Shown: in pieces, positions 4,460 to 25,976 of the stretch
Layout: each line of letters starts with the position of its first letter
How positions within the stretch are numbered: the stretch's first letter is position 1
Source of the DNA: Polyangiaceae bacterium
GTDB taxonomy: Bacteria > Myxococcota_A > Polyangia > Polyangiales > Polyangiaceae
Direction of reading: 5' to 3'
NCBI GenBank assembly: GCA_025353725.1
Contig: JANXOF010000044.1
Span: 1-64,000 of the forward strand
DNA length: 64,000 bases
Notes under the pieces: model-generated
Told to the model about the DNA's origin: nothing
What the model saw: the letters and a program-made list of their open reading frames with translations, nothing else
Database searches by the model: none
Made by a program: the position numbers and the translations under genes

Positions 4460-5736
4460 GGCTGCTGGCCTGCGCCCGCGCTCGCAAGCGTCACGGCGCG
4501 CCGAGAGAACGCGCCCGGAGCCGGAAGCGCGTACGGGGACGCGAGGCAGGTCACAGAGTTGTAGCCTCCGAACGCGAGCGAATTGTTGAGGACAATCTTG
4601 TGCGCGCCCTTTCGCGCAACGTTGGCGACGACGTCGAGATCACACTCGGGATCGGGCGTTTCGTACCCTATCGTCGGCGGGTAAAGGCCGGTCTCCAAAG
4701 TCATGATACAGCCGATGGCCTCGAGCGCGCTCGCCGCGCCCATGCAGTGCCCAAGCATACTTTTCATGCTGGAGATAGGCACCCGCCGGCGACCGAAAAT
4801 CTCTTTCATGACCTTCGATTCGGCGGCATCATTGTGCTTCGTCCCGGTACCGTGTGCGTTCACGAAATCTACCGAATCGACCGCGATTCCCGAGCGCGTA
4901 ATGGCTTGCTCCATGGCGCGGATGCTCCCGGCCGCGTCAGGGTGAGGCCGCGTAATGTGGTAAGCGTCGCAACTCATTCCATGGCCTCCGACTTCCGCCA
5001 GAAGCGTTGCCGCCTTTCGGCGTGTGGCGTACGCCTCGCTTTCGAGGATGAGAATGCCCGCTCCCTCACCCAAAATGAGGCCCTGACGATTCAGGTCAAA
5101 CGGCTGACATCGCTCCTGAGCCATCGCCGCAAGGCGAACGAACCCAATGTACTGAAGCTCTTGAAGAATTTCTGCCGCGCCCGTCACGACGACGTCGGCC
5201 TTTCCAGAGCGGAGCAGGTCGGCCGCGAATCCGATCGCGTAGTTTCCTGCGGCGCAAGCGGCCGGAAGCGTGATGACGGCGCCTTCGGAGCCGATAGCGC
5301 GCGCGACGTGAATGGGCAGCAACGTCGACCCGTACTTCGGTAACCACGCCCGCCGTACACCCGCCGCCCCCTTGTGAATCCACTGGTGGTCGAGATCTCC
5401 CAAGACGGCGGCCTCACCCATCGTGGTTCCCAGAACGACGCTCACGCGCGGACCTTTAAGCGCTTCCGCTTCGAGGCCAGCGTCAGCGACTGCCATCCGC
5501 GCGGCGGCAAGGGCCATCTGCGAGCAGCGCCCCATGCGCCTTATTTCGAGCGGCGTGAGGTGGTCTTTCGGCTCGAAGCCTTTGGCCTCGCCGCCGAATG
5601 TGCGGCCGAGGGTGGCGACGTCAAACGCCTCGACGCGCGAGATCCCGCTCGTGCCTTTCGCAAGCGCGTCGAAAAACGCTTTCTTGCCGAGGCCAATCGA
5701 GCTGACAACGCCGACACCCGTAATGAACACACGCAC
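4456..5736 (-). CDS. Beta-ketoacyl-ACP synthase II-type (FabF-like) ketosynthase
   Basis: Condenses an acyl-enzyme with malonyl-ACP. The 426-aa protein is full length for the FabF family, starting MRVFITGVGVVSSIG. The complete triad is visible: C161 in AACAAGNYA, H295 in NAHGTGTKHNDAAE and H330 in SMLGHCMGAASALE. It is the first gene of a minus-strand pair with the His-less ketosynthase partner (ATGA overlap). It is transcribed divergently from the fatty-acyl-AMP ligase across a 213-bp gap. No fabH, fabD or fabG flanks it, so this is probably a dedicated extra ketosynthase and not the housekeeping FabF. That is an inference from context. Confidence 0.93.
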   Translation of the reverse strand: MRVFITGVGVVSSIGLGKKAFFDALAKGTSGISRVEAFDVATLGRTFGGEAKGFEPKDHLTPLEIRRMGRCSQMALAAARMAVADAGLEAEALKGPRVSVVLGTTMGEAAVLGDLDHQWIHKGAAGVRRAWLPKYGSTLLPIHVARAIGSEGAVITLPAACAAGNYAIGFAADLLRSGKADVVVTGAAEILQELQYIGFVRLAAMAQERCQPFDLNRQGLILGEGAGILILESEAYATRRKAATLLAEVGGHGMSCDAYHITRPHPDAAGSIRAMEQAITRSGIAVDSVDFVNAHGTGTKHNDAAESKVMKEIFGRRRVPISSMKSMLGHCMGAASALEAIGCIMTLETGLYPPTIGYETPDPECDLDVVANVARKGAHKIVLNNSLAFGGYNSVTCLASPYALPAPGAFSRRAVTLASAGAGQQP

Positions 5737-5949
5737 AGGCGGTGTATACCGCGCGCGAAGTCAAAGGAGCAATGATGCGACCGCCGGACAAATGTTTGCC
5801 GTCGCCCTAAAAAGTCTGATTGATCACATGGTTGAACCACTTCGATTCATGCGTACCTACCTACGCGTGCGCGTCCATCTACGCATGGTCGATGCGTGGT
5901 TTGCTGACTTGCGCAAGGGGCGCCGACGCAGTAACTGACCGCGCCAACC
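5737..5949. promoter_or_regulatory. Divergent promoter region between ketosynthase pair and acyl-AMP ligase
   Basis: 213 bp without a convincing gene, between divergently transcribed genes, so it should hold promoters for both. It is relatively AT-rich at 5790-5850 (cctaaaaagtctgattgatc). I see no clear sigma-70 or sigma-54 boxes. Confidence 0.4.
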
Positions 5950-7812
5950 ATGAGCGATCCGAAGCACGTCGCGCCGACTTTGCCGGCAGCCATTCGCCAG
6001 CTCGCCGCGCTTGCTGAGTCGACTCGCCGAGCTTCGCACGCGCGCCGCGAGGGTTTGCAGTCCGCTCCCGCGAAGCCTGTGCGTGAGACCGGTCACGGCT
6101 CTGAAGTCACTGATGTCGCTGGTCTCACTGGTCTCAATGAGGTCGCTGAACGAGGCTTCGTTTTCGTTCGCCCCGACGGCACTGAGCGCTCCTGCTCGTT
6201 CGCCGAGTTGGCCTACCAAGCCGAGCGACGTGCCGCGAACCTTCACGCGTGCGGGCTGAAGAAAGGCGATCGCCTCGCAATCGTAGTCCCTGATCCGGAC
6301 GAATTTGTTCTTTCGTTTCTCGGTGCCGTGATGGGCGGCATCGTTCCGGTTCCTATTTTTCCGCAGCTTTCTTTCAAGAACGTCGACAGCTACCACGAGA
6401 CGGTCACCCACATCGCGAACGCTTCGGGATCGAAAATGCTGCTCACGACGGAAGCCACGAGGCCTTACGTGCAGCCCGTGCTTGCCCGGGTCGAATCGAT
6501 GACGCGCATCGCTACGGTCGACGAGCTGAACCTCCAAGACAACGGAATCGTCGACGTCGTCATCGAGCCGGAAGACACGGCGTTCTTGCAGTTTACATCA
6601 GGCTCCACGTCGAAGCCAAAGGGCGTAGTCGTCACGCACCGCAACCTCGCTTGGAACAGCGAGAGCTTCATGATCCACGGCCTCGAGAAGGATTCATCCT
6701 TCGACAAGGGCGTCAGTTGGCTCCCTCTCTTTCATGACATGGGGCTCATCGGCTTTGTCATCGGCCCACTTTTCACGAACATTCCGGTCGTGTTTTTACC
6801 GACCGCGAGCTTCGTCCGGAACCCGCGCATCTGGCTCGACAAGATTCACCAGCATCGCGGGACGATCACCTACGCCCCTAACTTCGCGTACTCGCTCGTC
6901 ACCAAGCGCGTAAAGGAGAAAGACGTCGCCGACCTCGACCTGTCGTGCCTCCGGCGCGCGGGATGCGGCGCTGAGCCGATTCAGTGGAAGACGCTCCACG
7001 AATTCGCCGACCGCTTGAAGACCGCAAAGTTTGACCCCCGCGCGTTTTTGCCGTCCTACGGAATGGCCGAATCTACCCTCGCAATTTCGTTCGTACCGGC
7101 CTTCTCCGGCGTGCGCGCGGACGTCGTGGAAAAGTCCGGGCTCGAGGTCGGCCAGGCCGTGCCGGCCCTTGAAGGCCTCCGGCTCGTCAATTGTGGGCGG
7201 ACCTTCCCAGAACACGAAATCGCAGTAGTGGACGAGAACGGCAACCGCCTCGCGGATCGCAAGGTGGGTCAAGTGTTGGCGCGCGGTCCGAGCATTGCGA
7301 GCGGCTACTACCAAGAGCCCGAGCTTACGGCCGAGGCGTTCAAGGCTGGGCCCGACGGCCATACCTGGCTCTACACGGGTGACCTTGGCTATCTCGTCGA
7401 CGGCGACATTTTCATCTGCGGCCGCCTGAAAGACATGATCATCGTTCGAGGCCGCAACTTCTATCCGAGCGATATCGAGTGGGTCGTGAGCGACCTGCCG
7501 GGTATTCGGCGGGGCAACGTCGTTGCTTTTTCCGCCGACGTTGCCGGCGAGGAACAGCTGGTCATCACCGCCGAGGGCCTGTCCGGCGAGGCCGAAGCGC
7601 TCAAGGCCGCCGTTGCCGTTCGCGTAGTCGCGGAATTTGCCCTCGCCGTACACGAGGTCGTGATCGTCCCGCAAGGCACGCTTCCACGCACTTCGAGCGG
7701 AAAACCGCAGCGGCGGAAGACTCGGCAGATGTACCTCGAAGGCACGTTAGTCCGCGCACGGTCCGTGCAAGGGCCTGAGGACCCTGTCGAGGAACCGGTA
7801 CTGAGCGCGTAG
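5950..7812 (+). CDS. Fatty-acyl-AMP ligase / acyl-ACP synthetase (ANL superfamily)
   Basis: Activates a fatty acid as acyl-adenylate and passes it to an ACP phosphopantetheine arm. The 620-aa protein has the adenylate-forming signatures: the phosphate loop FTSGSTSKPKG (about 215), SYGMAEST, the hinge-side GDLGYLVDGDIFICGR and the C-terminal lysine in PRTSSGKPQRRK (about residue 585). The length and the DMIIVRGRNFYPSDIEW segment fit fatty-acyl-AMP ligases better than acyl-CoA synthetases, and the two ACP genes immediately downstream fit acyl transfer to ACP. Start: the ATG at 5950 (MSDPKHVAP). About 50 N-terminal residues are low-complexity. The chain length specificity cannot be read. Confidence 0.92.
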   Translation: MSDPKHVAPTLPAAIRQLAALAESTRRASHARREGLQSAPAKPVRETGHGSEVTDVAGLTGLNEVAERGFVFVRPDGTERSCSFAELAYQAERRAANLHACGLKKGDRLAIVVPDPDEFVLSFLGAVMGGIVPVPIFPQLSFKNVDSYHETVTHIANASGSKMLLTTEATRPYVQPVLARVESMTRIATVDELNLQDNGIVDVVIEPEDTAFLQFTSGSTSKPKGVVVTHRNLAWNSESFMIHGLEKDSSFDKGVSWLPLFHDMGLIGFVIGPLFTNIPVVFLPTASFVRNPRIWLDKIHQHRGTITYAPNFAYSLVTKRVKEKDVADLDLSCLRRAGCGAEPIQWKTLHEFADRLKTAKFDPRAFLPSYGMAESTLAISFVPAFSGVRADVVEKSGLEVGQAVPALEGLRLVNCGRTFPEHEIAVVDENGNRLADRKVGQVLARGPSIASGYYQEPELTAEAFKAGPDGHTWLYTGDLGYLVDGDIFICGRLKDMIIVRGRNFYPSDIEWVVSDLPGIRRGNVVAFSADVAGEEQLVITAEGLSGEAEALKAAVAVRVVAEFALAVHEVVIVPQGTLPRTSSGKPQRRKTRQMYLEGTLVRARSVQGPEDPVEEPVLSA

Positions 7813-15963: not shown

Positions 15964-16204
15964 GACGACGGGTGGGTCCAGCCGGCTGCGTCACTCCAAT
16001 GCCCTGCGCGCTACTTTGCCGTCGGCGTGACGGCAGAGCGATCCGCCGACTTGCCCTCGCAGGCGAGACGGCGCGCCTGCGGCGGGCTCAGTTCCATGCT
16101 CGCCTGGCCTCCCCAATCGACCGCTTCACCATGGAGCAAAATTATGAACTGCCACTGCTCAAAACAATGGCTACTCATTGCTCAAAATAATACGGTTGTG
16201 GGGC

Positions 16205-17484
16205 GTGAAAACCGCGCTCGTTGAACGGCGCCTTCAGCCACACATCGAGCGCCTGTTGGGCACCGTGCCTGTCGTCATTCTGGAAGGGGCTCGGGCGGCG
16301 GGGAGAACGTCGATCGGTCTTTCCCTGCTTGCGCGCGGCTGCCTTGGTTCGATGGTTGCCCTCAGCGATCCCACGACGTTCGCGACCGCGGAAGCACCAC
16401 CGACATCGTTTGTCGCCGAGCTCGAGACTCCTGCGCTCATTGATGAGGCGCAACTCTTACCGGCGCTCGCACTTGCCGTGAAGAGGCGCGTCGATCGTGA
16501 AGCCATGAATGGCATGTTTATGCTCACGGGATCTTCGCGTCTGGGTCGCACGCAGTTAGGCGGCTCGGATCCGCTTGCGGGCCGCGCCGTGCGTTTGCGC
16601 CTTTGTCCAATGACGTAAGGGGAGCTCGCGGGCACGCCCGTAAACCTCGTCGAGACACTAAGCCTCGCGCAGCCGGGGAATGCGCACCCGAACGCGGGAC
16701 TTACGCGTCAGAACTTGATCACGCGCATTCGTAAGGCGGGCTACCTTTACTTGCAGGGCTTCGCGGGCCCCTTGATCCTCGCATACGAGAGCAACTTGCG
16801 TAGGAATACGTTGAAGCTGTGACCTACCACGAAGTCGGCGCACGGCATGATCGCGCCGAGTTGCTCAGACTCTTTCGCTACCTGGCCGCGAGTACCGCTC
16901 GCCTCGCAAACGTGAGCACCATCGGAAGCGAACTCGGCGCGACGCGTTCGACCGTGACCGCGCGGCTCGCATCGCTTGACGCGAGCTTTTTGCTTCATGC
17001 CGTTGCAGGGCGTCGTCCCGCAGAACATCGCACTCTCACCGCACATCCGAAGATTCACGCCGCGGATACGGGCCTCGCGGCGTGAGCCGCACGCATGGAT
17101 GATGCGCCATCGGCTGCACTGTTCGTGTCAATGCTAGAGACGTTGGTGGTCAATGAACTGGCCGCGCAATCCGGATGGCTTCCCAATGGTCCGGTGGTCC
17201 GCCACTGGAGGGACATGGCGAAGAAGCTTGAGGTCGATGCCGTGCTCTTGCAAAGCGACGGGCAATCGCTGGCCGTTGAAGTCAAAGCGGGCGCAGACGT
17301 TCGGCCTGAGGACCTCAAGGGTATGCGTGGGTATCTCGCTTCGGTGCCGGGAGCGACACTAGGCCTTGTATTTTACACTGGAGAGAGGACGTTTCAACTC
17401 GATGAAAGAATTTGGGCAGTGCCGATTTCCGCCTTGTGGGCGGGCCTTCTGCAAGCGCCAGCACGGAAACGTGGATCGGCATGA
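16205..17484 (+). pseudogene. AAA+ ATPase with DUF4143 C-terminus, broken by nonsense and frameshift mutations
   Basis: Family proteins are about 400 aa. Here the first part starts at GTG 16205 (KTALVERRLQPHIERLL), and its P-loop reads EGARAAGRTS, with Arg where the Walker lysine belongs. It stops at a TAA at 16616-16618. The context LCPMT-stop-GELAGTP against the usual L-P-T-Q-G-E-L indicates a CAA to TAA change. The frame continues (TRQNLITRIRKAGYL) to about 16818. Homology then resumes in another frame from 16819 (a winged-helix-like segment, VTARLASLDASFLL) and meets a TGA at 17083-17085. It ends with a nuclease-like tail (VDAVLLQSDGQSLAVEVKAG) at 17484. Three lesions plus the altered Walker A mean no functional product. 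Such ATPases are common accessory genes of unclear role. Confidence 0.85.
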
Positions 17485-17601: not shown

Positions 17602-18519
17602 CTAGTCGCCGAGGATCGCCGAGAGCTTGATGGTCTGTTTGCATATGCGCTCGAGCGTCGCGAGGGGAGTCCCGCACGGTGGTCGCACATACGCAGCGTT
17701 TTGATGGTCGTCGGACGATGACGTCCAGTATTTTCGTTTGGATTCGGCGAACTCTCGGTAATAGGCCGCGACTTCTGCCTTGTGCCGAGACGTGTAGACC
17801 TCGATGCCCCGGGCGTATTCCAACACTTGCATCGTGCGATCCTTGTCGCGGTAGCGCGTCGGGTGCGCGACGACATCGACCGCGCCGTCGTCGCGAATCA
17901 ACTCGATGAGCTCCTCCGGTCGCCATCCGAAGAGATCGCGATTGGGGCCACGGCTCGACCAGAAATCAATGTGATGTTGACGAAAAAGCTCAAAGATCGC
18001 GACGCGTCGATCCTCGGATAGCGCCGCCCCCGGACCTTCACCGGAGCGGTTGACGATGCGCAAGATCGTCGCCTGCAACGCAGGAAAAAGGGGAGCCGGG
18101 CAAGCCTCTAGCTCAGAGGTGGGGTCGAGGGCTTCACGCTCGTCCGTAGCGAGCGTTCGCATCCATTCGAGGACAAACGCCTTCCAGCGATCTTGCATAA
18201 GAAGGCCTCGTCGGTAGAGCCCTTTTTGTTCGAGTTCAAAGTTCTCCAGCACGTCGTGCGGATAATAGGCAAGGACGTGAAACTGCTCCTCGCCGCTGTC
18301 TCCGTAGTTGAGGTGTGACGTGACCTCGAGCGCCGGAATGAACAGCATGTTCGTGCGCGAAGCCGCCACGGCTCCGGCGCGCACGCCCGTGAGCACGTCG
18401 TGGTCGGCTATTGCGATGGCCTTCATGCCAAGTGAGCGCCGAAATTCAACGTACTCATCGGGGGTAGCTCGCCCGTCGGAGTGATACGTATGTCCGTGTA
18501 GGTCAGTTGAGACGAACAT
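17602..18519 (-). CDS. PHP-domain metal-dependent phosphoesterase
   Basis: 305 aa from the ATG at 18519 (MFVSTDLHGHTYHSDG). An in-frame start about 100 codons further upstream would overlap the divergent gene and adds low-complexity sequence. PHP metal-ligand motifs are visible: DLHGHTYHSDG (HxH), IAIADHDVLTG (DHD), a Glu in PALEVTSH, a His in VDVVAHPTRYR, and SSSDDHQ near the C-terminus. PHP proteins hydrolyse phosphoesters such as histidinol phosphate or nucleotide monophosphates, and the substrate here is not readable. It is divergent from the amylase-radical SAM gene, with about 190 bp between the preferred starts, and a joint regulatory region is likely. Confidence 0.88.
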   Translation of the reverse strand: MFVSTDLHGHTYHSDGRATPDEYVEFRRSLGMKAIAIADHDVLTGVRAGAVAASRTNMLFIPALEVTSHLNYGDSGEEQFHVLAYYPHDVLENFELEQKGLYRRGLLMQDRWKAFVLEWMRTLATDEREALDPTSELEACPAPLFPALQATILRIVNRSGEGPGAALSEDRRVAIFELFRQHHIDFWSSRGPNRDLFGWRPEELIELIRDDGAVDVVAHPTRYRDKDRTMQVLEYARGIEVYTSRHKAEVAAYYREFAESKRKYWTSSSDDHQNAAYVRPPCGTPLATLERICKQTIKLSAILGD

Positions 18520-18707: not shown

Positions 18708-21700
18708 GTGAGGTACGCTTTTCCCGTGTCGACGCTGCTTCGATGTGAAGGTTTCCACGCGAGCCAACGCGTGGACGTGCTCGGCGAGATATGCGACTGG
18801 CGAAATGCCATAGCGCTGACAAAGCATGCGGACGGCTCGTTCAGCGCTACGCTCGACTTGCCTACGGGCGTGTATCAGTACAAGTGGCTCGTCGACGGCG
18901 CCTCTTGGGAGCTCGACTCCCGCAATCCGCGGACGCGAAGCTTTCTCGGTCAACGCAATAGCGTAGTCGTCGTGGACGGCGCTCCGGAACCGCTTCTTTT
19001 TGCCGCGGCCCCGCCCTGGGTCGAAGAGCTCTCACGCGGAGGTATCCGAGCGCTGGTCGGGGTTCGCAGGGATTCGAGCGGGCGCGCGGAGCTCCCTCGC
19101 ATCGCTTACCGCGAGCAGACGGATGCCGAGTGGTCAGAAGCGACGGTCGAGAAAGCCTTTGAAGAGGATGAACACGTCTTTTTTACAGCGAGAGCGCCGA
19201 CGTCCGCGCCGCGGCTCGGGCTGCGTGTTTCCGCAGGGTCTGTCAGCTTTCAGACCTCCTGGGCGCGCGGGCCCAACCACACGCGAACGCCGGCGTGGTG
19301 GAAGAGAGCCGCACTCTACACCGTGTTCGTGGACCGCTTTCGGCCTGCGCACGATCGCGGCGAAGGCGAGACACCATGGGAAGTCGATCCAGGAAAGTTG
19401 GGAGTTTCCGGAGGACACCTTGACGGAATAAGGCGCTCGCTTTCGGCACTCGAAGACCTCGGAATCACTACGCTCTATCTCACACCCGTGCATATCGGCG
19501 CGAGCGTGCATCGCTACGACATCGTCGACCCGCTCACCGTCGACCCGGCGCTCGGAGGTGAAGCGTCCTACGATGCGCTGGTGCGCGAGGCCGCCGCTTA
19601 CGGGATGTGCATTGTACAAGACATCTCGTTCGCACACGTCGGGTTCGATTTTCCGCCTTATCGTGACGTTCGCGAGCATGGCCTCGCGTCGCGCTTTGCG
19701 TCTTGGTTCGTCTGGAAAGACGGAAGGCTCGTTCACTACGGCGAGCGCACGGACGCGCCGCTCCTCAACCTCGCTCATCCCGAGGTCGAGGCGCTCACTC
19801 TTTCGGGCGTCGAGTACTGGGCAAAGCGAGGCGCAAAAGGTCTTCGTTTAGATATGACTGCCGAAGTTCCATTGAGCCTCGGACGCCGCATGCGCCGTCG
19901 GTTTCGAGACCTCGTGCCTGACGGCGTGGTGTTCGGCGAGATCGTTCCCGAGCACGCGTGGCGCTGGCAGAAAGAGGGCGTCGTCGACGCCGCAACCGAT
20001 TTCGGCTTTCACGAAGTTATCTCGCAGTTGGTGTGCAGTCCAGAGCCCGCCGCCGACGCGGCTTGGGCGCGTCTCGAGCGGAGTCGCCTTTTGCGCGGGG
20101 GCGACACGCACCGCGCCTCCGTGCGCTTCGCGTCGACGCATGATCACCCGCGCCTCGCCACGCGCGCCTTCGCAGCGGGCACTCTTTGTCGCCTCCCCGC
20201 CGCGTACGTGATGCTCGCCACAATGCCCGGCGTGCCCATGCTGCTCTACGGAGAAGAGGCCGGCATGCGATCCAACGCGGCACATTTTGACGTTGAAGAC
20301 GTATGGCCCGACCGCGCACCGTTACCTTGGCCCGCGCCAGGCGAAAGCGCGTCCATCCGTGCCCTCATTCGCGACCTTCTACGTGCCCGAAGGACGTCGC
20401 CCGCGCTTGTCGAAGGTGAAGCGACACTTCTCTTTTCGGACGCCTGCACGCTTGTCTACCGTCGCGAAGCAGACGGCGACGTGGTGGATGTCGTGCTCAA
20501 CTTCTCTTCCGAAGCGGTGACCCTTGCCCTCGACGACGACGAGCTTCCCGGACTGGTTCCGATCGCCGCGGCAGGCGCTTGCGAAGTGACGCTTCAGAAC
20601 GTCCGAATCCCCCCCTTTGGGGCTCTGGTTGCGAGGCGAGAGGGGCCGTTCGGTCGCGCGGTCGTGCCCGCCCGTGCGCGCTTCAATCTTGTCCTTCGGG
20701 ATCGCGAGTTCGTCGACAGCCGAATCGGACTCGCCGCACGACCTTCGCGGTTTTTCTTCTCCGTCACGGAGCGCTGCAATCTTCGATGCGAACACTGCAT
20801 TACAAACGCGCCGGAACTGACGAAAAGTGGAGCGGCGCGCACGATGACCCCGCGTCTACTCGATGCGCTCCGAGACGACTTCGGATTTGCAAATTATTTT
20901 GCGTTCGTTCACGGTGGCGAATCGCTCACTGCTCCTATTTTGTTTGATGTTTTGAAAGCCATTAAAGAGCGGCGCGGCCTGGAGCCTTACGCCGCGCACT
21001 TGCTATCGAACGGGGTCCTTCTCTCTGCGAGCATGGCTGAGCGCCTCGTCGAGAGCGGAATCTCGTCCATTTCGGTGTCGCTCGATGGCGCAACGGCGAG
21101 AACAAACGACAGGATCCGCACCGGAGGTCGTTTCGAAACCATTGTGAAAAACGTCGCCGACGTCATGGCGTTCCGACGCCGAGCATCCGCCGATTTACGC
21201 TTCGGCCTTTCCTATGTGGTGCTTGCGCAAAACGTCACGGAACTCAGCGCGTTCGTTGATCTCGCGGCCTCACTCGGTGTCGACTGGGTCAAGATCGAAG
21301 AGGGCGTTCCGGCGACGGCGTTCGCAAAGAACTCGCTCGTGGCGTGCTCGCTTCCGGATATCCGACTCGCCATTGACGCAGCGATTGCCCGTGGCCGAAC
21401 CCATGGCCTTGTCATGGTCGACCACACCACAGACAGCAAGGTATGGCGTTGCCGGCTCAACGTCGACGAACCCGCGCGAAGCTTCCTCGAAGCGGACGAA
21501 TACGCCAACCGCTGTGAAATTCACCCGTGCCGCACGCCGTGGGAGACGGTGTGCGTAGAGCCCAACGGCGACGTCCGCGCGCAGGACTTTTACGGCCCCA
21601 TTTTAGGGAATATCACCACATCAAAGCTCGCGGTCCTTTGGAACGAGCCAGCCGCCCGCGACATCCGCCAGTGTGCCATTCGCGAGCGCCTCTGCGGCGA

Positions 21701-21722
21701 AGGAGCCGTCGTCTGCCTCTAA
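18708..21722 (+). CDS. Alpha-amylase (GH13) fused to a radical SAM/SPASM-like domain
   Basis: One uninterrupted frame of 1004 aa starting at GTG 18708 (or GTG 18726). Residues 10-95 look like a glycogen-binding/CBM48-type beta domain (PTGVYQYKWLVDG). Residues about 195-560 are a GH13 barrel: YTVFVDRF, DISFAHVGF (region I), GLRLDMTAEV with the nucleophile D382, GEIVPEHAW with the acid/base E411, and STHDHPRLATR with D479. A short beta domain follows to about 645. Residues about 680-1004 are a radical SAM domain with CNLRCEHC (C690, C694, C697), VHGGES, LLSNG and ISVSLDGA. A Cys-rich tail (C936, C941, C949, C989, C996, C1003) could bind auxiliary clusters. The catalytic residues of both halves are present. 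The reaction of the radical SAM part is unknown, and no precursor peptide is seen nearby. Confidence 0.9.
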   Translation: MRYAFPVSTLLRCEGFHASQRVDVLGEICDWRNAIALTKHADGSFSATLDLPTGVYQYKWLVDGASWELDSRNPRTRSFLGQRNSVVVVDGAPEPLLFAAAPPWVEELSRGGIRALVGVRRDSSGRAELPRIAYREQTDAEWSEATVEKAFEEDEHVFFTARAPTSAPRLGLRVSAGSVSFQTSWARGPNHTRTPAWWKRAALYTVFVDRFRPAHDRGEGETPWEVDPGKLGVSGGHLDGIRRSLSALEDLGITTLYLTPVHIGASVHRYDIVDPLTVDPALGGEASYDALVREAAAYGMCIVQDISFAHVGFDFPPYRDVREHGLASRFASWFVWKDGRLVHYGERTDAPLLNLAHPEVEALTLSGVEYWAKRGAKGLRLDMTAEVPLSLGRRMRRRFRDLVPDGVVFGEIVPEHAWRWQKEGVVDAATDFGFHEVISQLVCSPEPAADAAWARLERSRLLRGGDTHRASVRFASTHDHPRLATRAFAAGTLCRLPAAYVMLATMPGVPMLLYGEEAGMRSNAAHFDVEDVWPDRAPLPWPAPGESASIRALIRDLLRARRTSPALVEGEATLLFSDACTLVYRREADGDVVDVVLNFSSEAVTLALDDDELPGLVPIAAAGACEVTLQNVRIPPFGALVARREGPFGRAVVPARARFNLVLRDREFVDSRIGLAARPSRFFFSVTERCNLRCEHCITNAPELTKSGAARTMTPRLLDALRDDFGFANYFAFVHGGESLTAPILFDVLKAIKERRGLEPYAAHLLSNGVLLSASMAERLVESGISSISVSLDGATARTNDRIRTGGRFETIVKNVADVMAFRRRASADLRFGLSYVVLAQNVTELSAFVDLAASLGVDWVKIEEGVPATAFAKNSLVACSLPDIRLAIDAAIARGRTHGLVMVDHTTDSKVWRCRLNVDEPARSFLEADEYANRCEIHPCRTPWETVCVEPNGDVRAQDFYGPILGNITTSKLAVLWNEPAARDIRQCAIRERLCGEGAVVCL

Positions 21723-24803: not shown

Positions 24804-25976
24804 ATGGCAATCAACGTTCGTATCTTGCGCGGTGTTCAGACGGGTCTCACTGGTATGTCAGGGCTCGTGGCGCTGTCGGGCGGTGCGGCAGCCTGTACGG
24901 GTGAGGCTCCTCCTCGGGGAGAATCACTGGGATGCACGTCGAGTGCCGTCACCGTCCAAGACGCCGGTACAGGTGTCTTTTCGCTCGCTATGGCTTACGG
25001 CTACCAAGTCGCGTTTCATTGGGAGTTTTCAGCGAAAAACTCGACTGACGAGTACGTGCGCGTCGGTGAAAAGATGTCGTTTGACCTCCCCGCGAACCTC
25101 CTTTGGGAGGTGATTCATCACGCGGACGCCACGCCGCGCCCCGACGTCGCGCGACTGAAGCAGCTCTCGGCCGTCGTCACGGTTTTCTTTGTCGATTCGG
25201 CTGGGGTGAGCTCGCAAGCATCGGTCGCGACCAATGGCTCGTTTTCGGGCTCGCAAACGTACGACCTCACGCTTCCGACAAGCGCCTTCGTGATCCCCGC
25301 TAAGACCTCGGGCCTACGATTCGAGATTCGGGTAAATGATGCCCAAGATTCCGAACGAGTCGGCCGCAAACCGTCGTCCGAATTTAACGAGGTTCGGGTA
25401 GTCGGCGGAAATGTTCCGACGAAAACGCTGCTTTTCGATACGGACTATGCGCGGTTCCGCCAGCGCATTCTTGAGGGCGGCAAGCCCGTCTCTGGAGCCG
25501 AACTAGCGATCGCCTACACGGATTGGCGCGCCAAAGCCCTGGTGGACAGCAGCTCGATCGACGCTGTCATTGGCACTCAAACCAGCTACGGTCGATTCGG
25601 CAGCTTCCAGCGGCCTATTCAAGGAGACCTCGTCTATGAGATTACCTACGCGGCAGGCGTTGACGGCGCGTGGCAGGCCGAGCGCCCGCTGACGGCCAAT
25701 GGGCAGTCGCCATGGCTCCCGTCGAGCGGCCCGAGCGGCCAGGTGCCGCACTCCGAACGTACCGCTTACGAGGGGCTCCTTCAACTTCCGGCAGGCGCTT
25801 CGCGGCTTGAGCTTTACTTTCACGTAAAGACGTATCTTGACGTGAACTACGACAAATTTACCGACGTGAACTCTCGTCGCTACGAAAACGGGGCGCGTTT
25901 CCTTGTGCGCGAAAAGTGGGACAACGAAAATGGCGCCTACGCCGACAACTACGGTTTTGGTATTGAGGTTCCCTGA
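24804..25976 (+). CDS. Hypothetical lipoprotein
   Basis: 390 aa. The ATG at 24804 is preceded by AGGAG at 8 bp. The N-terminus MAINVRILRG leads a hydrophobic stretch ending GGAAAC, a plausible lipobox. The mature part is rich in beta-strand-like segments with two related-looking halves: FSLAMAYGYQVAFHWEFSAK early and LVYEITYAAGVDGAW later, each followed by polar loops. This pattern suggests two beta-sandwich modules. There is no catalytic motif, and I do not recognise the family. It is convergent with the IgGFc-binding-type gene. Confidence 0.78.
   Translation: MAINVRILRGVQTGLTGMSGLVALSGGAAACTGEAPPRGESLGCTSSAVTVQDAGTGVFSLAMAYGYQVAFHWEFSAKNSTDEYVRVGEKMSFDLPANLLWEVIHHADATPRPDVARLKQLSAVVTVFFVDSAGVSSQASVATNGSFSGSQTYDLTLPTSAFVIPAKTSGLRFEIRVNDAQDSERVGRKPSSEFNEVRVVGGNVPTKTLLFDTDYARFRQRILEGGKPVSGAELAIAYTDWRAKALVDSSSIDAVIGTQTSYGRFGSFQRPIQGDLVYEITYAAGVDGAWQAERPLTANGQSPWLPSSGPSGQVPHSERTAYEGLLQLPAGASRLELYFHVKTYLDVNYDKFTDVNSRRYENGARFLVREKWDNENGAYADNYGFGIEVP

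Follow-up and report, generated by a model that had tools for sequence, protein, structure and literature searches.

A Conserved Amylase-Radical SAM Fusion of Myxococcota and Its Two Partner Proteins Point to an Undescribed Alteration of Starch-Like Sugars or of the Proteins That Hold Them

A gene of a Polyangiaceae bacterium joins a glycoside hydrolase of family GH13 to a radical SAM enzyme in one reading frame, and genome comparison indicates a system of three genes, in which the fusion is central and is accompanied by a subfamily of PHP phosphoesterases and a putatively exported lipoprotein. Each domain of the fusion can be assigned to a known family, while the combination with its partners is apparently undescribed, as no description of it was found in the literature searched. 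The conservation of the enzyme and its partners points to an undescribed chemical alteration of starch-like sugars or of the proteins that hold them. An earlier note on this DNA had already linked the fusion to the PHP gene, and this part of its reading of the system stands, but the exported lipoprotein and a genus with reciprocal loss of the two halves had been missed. The window referred to below is the whole stretch of 64,000 nucleotides that was analysed.

The reading frame and translation of the fusion gene are uninterrupted and without an internal stop (Table 1), and the gene is present in a single copy in its own genome. Judging from the gene model and the start of the relatives, translation probably begins at the GTG at position 18726 rather than at 18708. 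All five Pfam domains (CBM48, Alpha-amylase, DUF3459, Radical_SAM, and SPASM) exceed their gathering scores. The predicted structure, which with a mean pLDDT of 70 and a pTM of 0.59 is usable for the fold only, indicated an additional amylase N-domain between CBM48 and the barrel when it was compared with neopullulanase-type enzymes (residues 96-646, Z about 37), and Alpha-amylase_N matches weakly in relatives of the fusion. The protein carries no signal peptide, and the enzyme seems to be cytosolic.

Table 1. Positions in the window of the fusion gene, its domains, and its two partner genes
Feature	Positions	Strand	Basis or remark
Divergent PHP phosphoesterase, conserved partner	17602..18519	-	Start at 18519 by homology
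CBM48 - amylase N-domain - GH13 - C-domain - radical SAM - SPASM/twitch fusion gene	18708..21722	+	1004 aa frame
CBM48 (AMPK1_CBM), residues 19-90	18762..18977	+	Pfam E 5.6e-11
Amylase N-terminal (CBM34-like) domain, residues about 96-192	18993..19283	+	Structure alignment with the N-domain of TVA II
GH13 catalytic barrel, residues 206-522, D382/E411/D479	19323..20273	+	Pfam Alpha-amylase E 1.1e-28
GH13 C-terminal beta domain (DUF3459), residues 553-640	20364..20627	+	Pfam E 1.2e-7
Radical SAM core, residues 685-819, CNLRCEHC 690-697 (20775-20798)	20760..21164	+	Pfam E 1.3e-14
SPASM/twitch-like C-terminal region, C915, C941, C1003 (C949 in most)	21450..21719	+	Pfam SPASM 941-990 E 1.4e-5
A1-family lipoprotein, putatively exported, two predicted Ig-like beta-sandwich domains	24804..25976	+	Sequence and predicted structure

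The GH13 half scores 101.1 bits with PF00128 against a gathering score of 22, and the nucleophile Asp, the acid/base Glu, and the stabilizer Asp are all present along with the R, H, and H of the conserved regions. The set D305, H310, R380, D382, E411, H478, and D479 was kept in all 33 of the GH13 sequences compared. Its closest matches were neopullulanase, cyclomaltodextrinase, and cyclic maltosyl-maltose hydrolase (Z 37.6), and by these it is not a plain alpha-amylase but neopullulanase/cyclomaltodextrinase-like; the earlier label of alpha-amylase is right as to GH13 but not as to the plain alpha-amylase. The catalytic set, the barrel, and the N- and C-domains are those of the neopullulanase, cyclomaltodextrinase, and maltogenic amylase group (TVA II, 1jf6, 1bvz), and TVA II (1vfm_A) aligned with residues 96-646 of the fusion model at Z 37.5 over 527 residues with about 24% identity. 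In contrast to that group, the fusion has a CBM48 added ahead of these domains and a radical SAM-SPASM half following them, and it stays far below the NCBIfam equivalog cut-offs for neopullulanase and cyclomaltodextrinase (146.6 versus 540 bits for the latter).

The other half belongs to the radical SAM family (PF04055, 55.1 bits against 29.5) and to the SPASM family (PF13186, 25.7 bits against a gathering score of 21.5). C690, C694, and C697 of the CxxxCxxC motif were kept in 36 of 37 radical SAM sequences and, together with D382, E411, and D479, were invariant in an alignment of eight sequences, so that both halves keep their catalytic residues as the earlier note wrote. Its count of six further C-terminal cysteines needs correction: eight follow the motif in the fusion, and only C915 and C941 (each in 37/37 sequences), C1003 (33/37), and C949 (27/37) are widely conserved. 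The seven-cysteine pattern for two auxiliary clusters is absent from the fusion. Since there are fewer conserved auxiliary cysteines than in canonical SPASM domains, a single auxiliary cluster is suggested, and the C-terminal domain is likely of the one-cluster twitch/SPASM type rather than a full two-cluster SPASM domain.

Peptides or proteins are the substrates of most known SPASM enzymes. Among the SPASM/twitch enzymes that share the CxxxCxxC core, the radical SAM profile, and C-terminal auxiliary cysteines with the fusion, the substrates of BlsE, BtrN, and DesII are sugars or resemble them, and those of SkfB, PqqE, and anSME are peptides or proteins. Unlike these enzymes, the fusion is joined to a glycoside hydrolase, has fewer auxiliary cysteines, and reaches no subfamily cut-off, the best being TIGR04311 (94.7/400 bits), which like TIGR04317 (77.6/380 bits) describes radical SAM metalloenzyme maturases. 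When the radical SAM profile was compared with solved structures, BlsE came out on top and SkfB, PqqE, BtrN, DesII, and a sulfatase maturase were also listed, all of them relatives at the superfamily level only (best E 1.3e-9). BlsE is a radical SAM sugar-acid decarboxylase with a sugar-type substrate (PMC3715490).

The whole fusion was found in a single frame at 27 loci (12 of subfamily I and 15 of subfamily II) in 26 Myxococcota genomes, at 33 to 64% identity. Within a set of 58 genomes made up of the genome itself and its relatives, full-length single-frame homologues had identities of 64, 54, 48, 48, 46, and 48%, and a second fusion paralogue had 40%. Matches at E < 1e-60 were present in 29 of 184 genomes of the order, some of which (e.g., G181, G037, and G057) match the GH13 part only, and 16 of 379 genomes across the phylum had matches at E < 1e-80. 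A GTDB-wide alignment scan gave long matches from Myxococcota and deltaproteobacterial MAGs only, Labilithrix, Polyangiaceae, and Sandaracinus among them; the other four matches were short radical SAM matches in unrelated organisms, and no full-length fusion homologue was found outside Myxococcota. A single-sequence scan of genome contigs returned no match, probably through over-specific patterns, and it was the alignment scan that gave matches. Contig ends truncate the fusion loci of G113, G055, and G490. In G071 (L091/L109), the fusion gene is broken inside the radical SAM domain (near model position 773) and reads as two overlapping frames.

Frame, Pfam domains, and homologues together confirm the one-frame fusion of amylase and radical SAM domains first noticed in the earlier note. 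Its statement that no stop or frameshift lies between the halves agrees with the open frame, and an assembly join or frameshift is excluded by the independent full-length homologues in 26 genomes. The search that it proposed for orthologues of the same layout with conserved neighbours found most orthologues fused and the context conserved; orthologues that are always split and lie in an unrelated context, which the note named as evidence against its reading, were not what we saw, as one genus only is split. Two other readings were considered and rejected. No plasmid record covers 80% of the fusion protein, which speaks against a plasmid origin, and PADLOC matched only a generic GH13 and a viperin-like radical SAM enzyme, which gives no defence system.

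Trees of the GH13 and radical SAM domains both separate subfamily I from subfamily II, disregarding six GH13-less proteins that the GH13 tree held on a long outside branch, and the pairwise distances of the two halves correlate with r = 0.94 over 28 proteins. Such congruent trees and correlated distances are as expected for one old fusion. A recent local fusion was rejected on the same congruence and on the occurrence of the fusion in several families and, within Myxococcota, also outside the order. The split genus, g14, has two loci in all six of its species, each encoding one half. The first locus encodes CBM48-GH13 without radical SAM, lies beside genes for the PHP protein and for a lipoprotein of the family termed A1 here, and groups with subfamily I; the second lacks the GH13 barrel, its product consisting of CBM48, the amylase N-domain, and radical SAM-SPASM, and groups within subfamily II. 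These complementary losses are as expected if both halves serve one pathway, and we read the reciprocal loss as a sign that both activities are needed in that pathway and that the radical SAM half needs CBM48 too. At the g14 loci L103, L104, L106, and L042, the CBM48-radical SAM gene and a gene for a CAP-domain (PF00188) lipoprotein overlap by a few bases.

The idea that the divergent PHP gene belongs with the fusion is supported by adjacency at many loci and by the distribution of this PHP subfamily, which none of the order's 184 genomes has without the fusion or its GH13 half. The protein scores 32.9 bits with PF02811 against a threshold of 26.4, and the metal-ligand motifs HxH, DHD, E, H, AHP, and DDH are invariant in 11 sequences. 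This His/Asp/Glu metal-binding set is shared with PHP enzymes of the 3',5'-nucleoside bisphosphate phosphatase type, of which NF041577 is the best NCBIfam model, but at 64.3/400 bits the partner falls outside that equivalog, from which its linkage to the fusion also sets it apart. At L130 (G143, 5234-6586), a second PHP gene adjoins a shortened A1 gene, with no fusion in the 12 kb read.

The lipoprotein partners, whose export is inferred from a hydrophobic N-terminus and an invariant Cys, are of two families: subfamily I fusions pair with A1 lipoproteins and subfamily II fusions with CBM21 lipoproteins, the CBM21 domains being apparently in tandem. In the window, a Fur-family gene and katG separate the fusion from the A1 gene. 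The predicted fold of A1 is a pair of Ig-like sandwiches, and membership in a known family was rejected for A1, as there was no match in Pfam, NCBIfam, or a PDB sequence search and the structure searches (Foldseek and VIA-align) gave only common Ig-like sandwiches among the matches listed, with a best Z of 5.8. CBM21 chains did not appear in that list, which does not count against a kinship with them. Profile comparisons between A1 and CBM21 were weak, with a similar C-terminal WDN..G..NY motif. The A1 N-terminus M-x-K-V-R-V lies ahead of the invariant Cys and, in the genome itself, is found in two A1 paralogues only. The second of these (L123, 7799-8896 on contig C13) has no fusion or PHP gene nearby, precedes a protein kinase-TPR gene, and ends in WDNNGGANY, which resembles the tail of the CBM21 lipoproteins. 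A domain with no Pfam name and a length of about 200 aa (GQDMFIRGGIDH...DWTTNxWP) is C-terminal in the long A1 lipoproteins of L036, L038, L039, and L040 and is also present in a galactose-oxidase-like kelch protein (L129, 3672-6098).

Ten of 11 CBM21 partners match CBM_21 (PF03370) at E up to 0.01 (best 1.6e-12), and the L037 copy reaches 32.7 bits versus 28.9. Their nearest solved relatives are glycogen-targeting PP1 subunits (3B/3C structures), and the subfamily II lipoproteins are predicted to bind starch or glycogen through tandem CBM21 domains. They resemble the known CBM21 proteins, such as the PP1 glycogen-targeting subunits and the starch-binding domain of Rhizopus glucoamylase, in matching CBM_21 and PP1 3B/3C, but appear as exported lipoproteins without an enzyme on the same chain, and the window's own partner is of the A1 family, not CBM21. 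Many have a conserved N-terminal T-F-x-E-A-x-E-x-x-L ahead of the invariant Cys. At six loci (L084, L086, L087, L088, L090, and L094), the genes follow the order CBM21 lipoprotein, PHP, fusion on one strand, and the first two mostly overlap by a few bases. The second fusion paralogue (L037, G033:C21, 11156-13104) has two further proteins beside it, one CBM21-like and lacking a signal peptide, the other a separate radical SAM/SPASM protein.

The association holds beyond gene neighbourhoods. In the 184 genomes of the order, the lipoprotein cores and the PHP subfamily occur only with the fusion or its halves. The A1 core is present in 20 genomes, all with a subfamily I gene (Fisher p 7.5e-26), and the one subfamily I genome without A1 (G004) is 72% complete. 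Full tandem-CBM21 lipoproteins are present in 6 genomes, exactly those with full subfamily II fusions (p 2e-11), and the PHP subfamily in 14, all with subfamily I (p 3e-16). These Fisher values treat related genomes as independent; collapsing to genera, which handles kinship partly, gave tables of 12/0/0/72 for A1, 4/0/0/80 for CBM21, and 8/0/4/72 for PHP (p 9e-15, 5e-7, and 1e-8). In G136 the fusion, A1, and PHP genes are all present on three different contigs, and linkage alone can therefore not account for the co-occurrence.

The reading that we tentatively rank first is that the fusion is a bifunctional Myxococcota enzyme at the core of a three-component system acting on an alpha-glucan (glycogen, starch, or maltodextrin), with the radical SAM half altering a glucosyl unit. 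CBM48 would hold the alpha-glucan and the GH13 site would cut or transfer it in the manner of neopullulanases, while the adjoining radical SAM site, with a 5'-deoxyadenosyl radical and one auxiliary iron-sulphur cluster, would alter a glucosyl unit by oxidation, epimerisation, or elimination, as BtrN, NeoN, DesII, and BlsE do on small sugars. The PHP enzyme, to go by its family, might remove or open a phosphate ester in the same pathway, and at the cell envelope the lipoprotein would bind the glucan or what is made from it. The involvement of a carbohydrate, which the earlier note had considered, gains weight from the CBM48, the neopullulanase-like GH13 half, the CBM21 partner, and the GH13-less variant that keeps CBM48. 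It is the glucan theme common to CBM48, GH13, and CBM21, along with the sugar-acting radical SAM relatives, that places alpha-glucan modification first and maturation of the lipoprotein second. Weighing against the glucan are the peptide or protein enzymes (SkfB, PqqE, and the sulfatase maturase) among the remote solved relatives, the peptide or protein substrates of most known SPASM enzymes, the lack of a Pfam match for A1 and its weak profile comparisons with CBM21, and the overlapping CAP-domain lipoprotein gene of g14, which fits protein modification too. In addition, the lipoprotein seems exported and the enzyme cytosolic, and the two need not meet the same glucan.

In the second-ranked explanation, which is possible, the radical SAM half is a protein maturase that acts in the cytosol on its co-encoded lipoprotein and modifies it ahead of export, with CBM48-GH13 positioning the maturase on a glucan or trimming a lipoprotein glycan. 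The close pairing of the two fusion subfamilies with one lipoprotein family each fits this, as do the conserved lipoprotein N-termini ahead of the invariant Cys, the overlap of the GH13-less radical SAM gene with the CAP-domain lipoprotein gene in g14, and the frequency of peptide maturases among the weak profile relatives, including TIGR04133, which is named for a lipoprotein neighbour. However, A1 and PHP in g14 stay beside the GH13-only protein that lacks radical SAM, which links the lipoprotein no less closely to GH13 than to radical SAM; in the same genus the GH13-less radical SAM protein persists without a CBM21 partner and keeps CBM48, and no common target motif was demonstrable between the A1 and CBM21 families. 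That the radical SAM half modifies the GH13 half itself would suit their physical fusion, but it is very improbable, as the GH13-only proteins of g14 have no radical SAM domain fused to them and yet retain the entire catalytic set, which excludes a role solely in cis there.

The same genus shows that the halves can exist apart, as they could if the fusion were a mere tether of two independent cytosolic activities, GH13 for ordinary maltodextrin use and radical SAM for an unrelated metabolite. We consider this unlikely in view of the retention of both halves in all six g14 species despite reciprocal loss, the CBM48 kept by the GH13-less protein, the congruent trees, and the specific co-occurrence of partners. 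An assembly chimera or frameshift artefact would be conceivable in genomes that are mostly MAGs, with one relative (G071/L091) broken within the radical SAM domain, but with 27 full-length loci and congruent domain trees the chimera was rejected and its probability is negligible.

Known radical SAM substrates are small molecules, peptides, proteins, and nucleic acids, and we know of no radical SAM enzyme shown to act on a storage polysaccharide. A bolder form of alpha-glucan modification, which we regard as rather doubtful, is that this would be the first radical SAM enzyme on a polysaccharide, putting oxidised, epimerised, or dehydrated glucosyl units into an alpha-glucan that its own GH13 half cuts or transfers, with the modified glucan handled by the dedicated PHP enzyme and the glucan-binding lipoprotein. 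With a radical SAM site and a complete glucan-active site in the same protein, a pair of dedicated partners, and a split genus, the question is directly testable, and one would expect to find either a modified alpha-glucan that is new or modified lipoproteins of a new class. The fusion and its partners also form a concrete set of genes for knock-out in myxobacteria.

In the literature that could be searched here (titles, abstracts, and term counts, covering few subscription papers), we found no published description of the three-gene system or of radical SAM fused to GH13, CBM48, or CBM21, and within that scope the earlier remark that no enzyme of such architecture is described holds. A survey of the amylases of Sandaracinus amylolyticus does not mention radical SAM (PMC5010890). 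Elsewhere in the window (16178-17484, + strand), an AAA_14/DUF4143 ATPase gene is seemingly broken, its AAA_14 part (16178-16618) and its DUF4143 part (17095-17484) lying in different frames.
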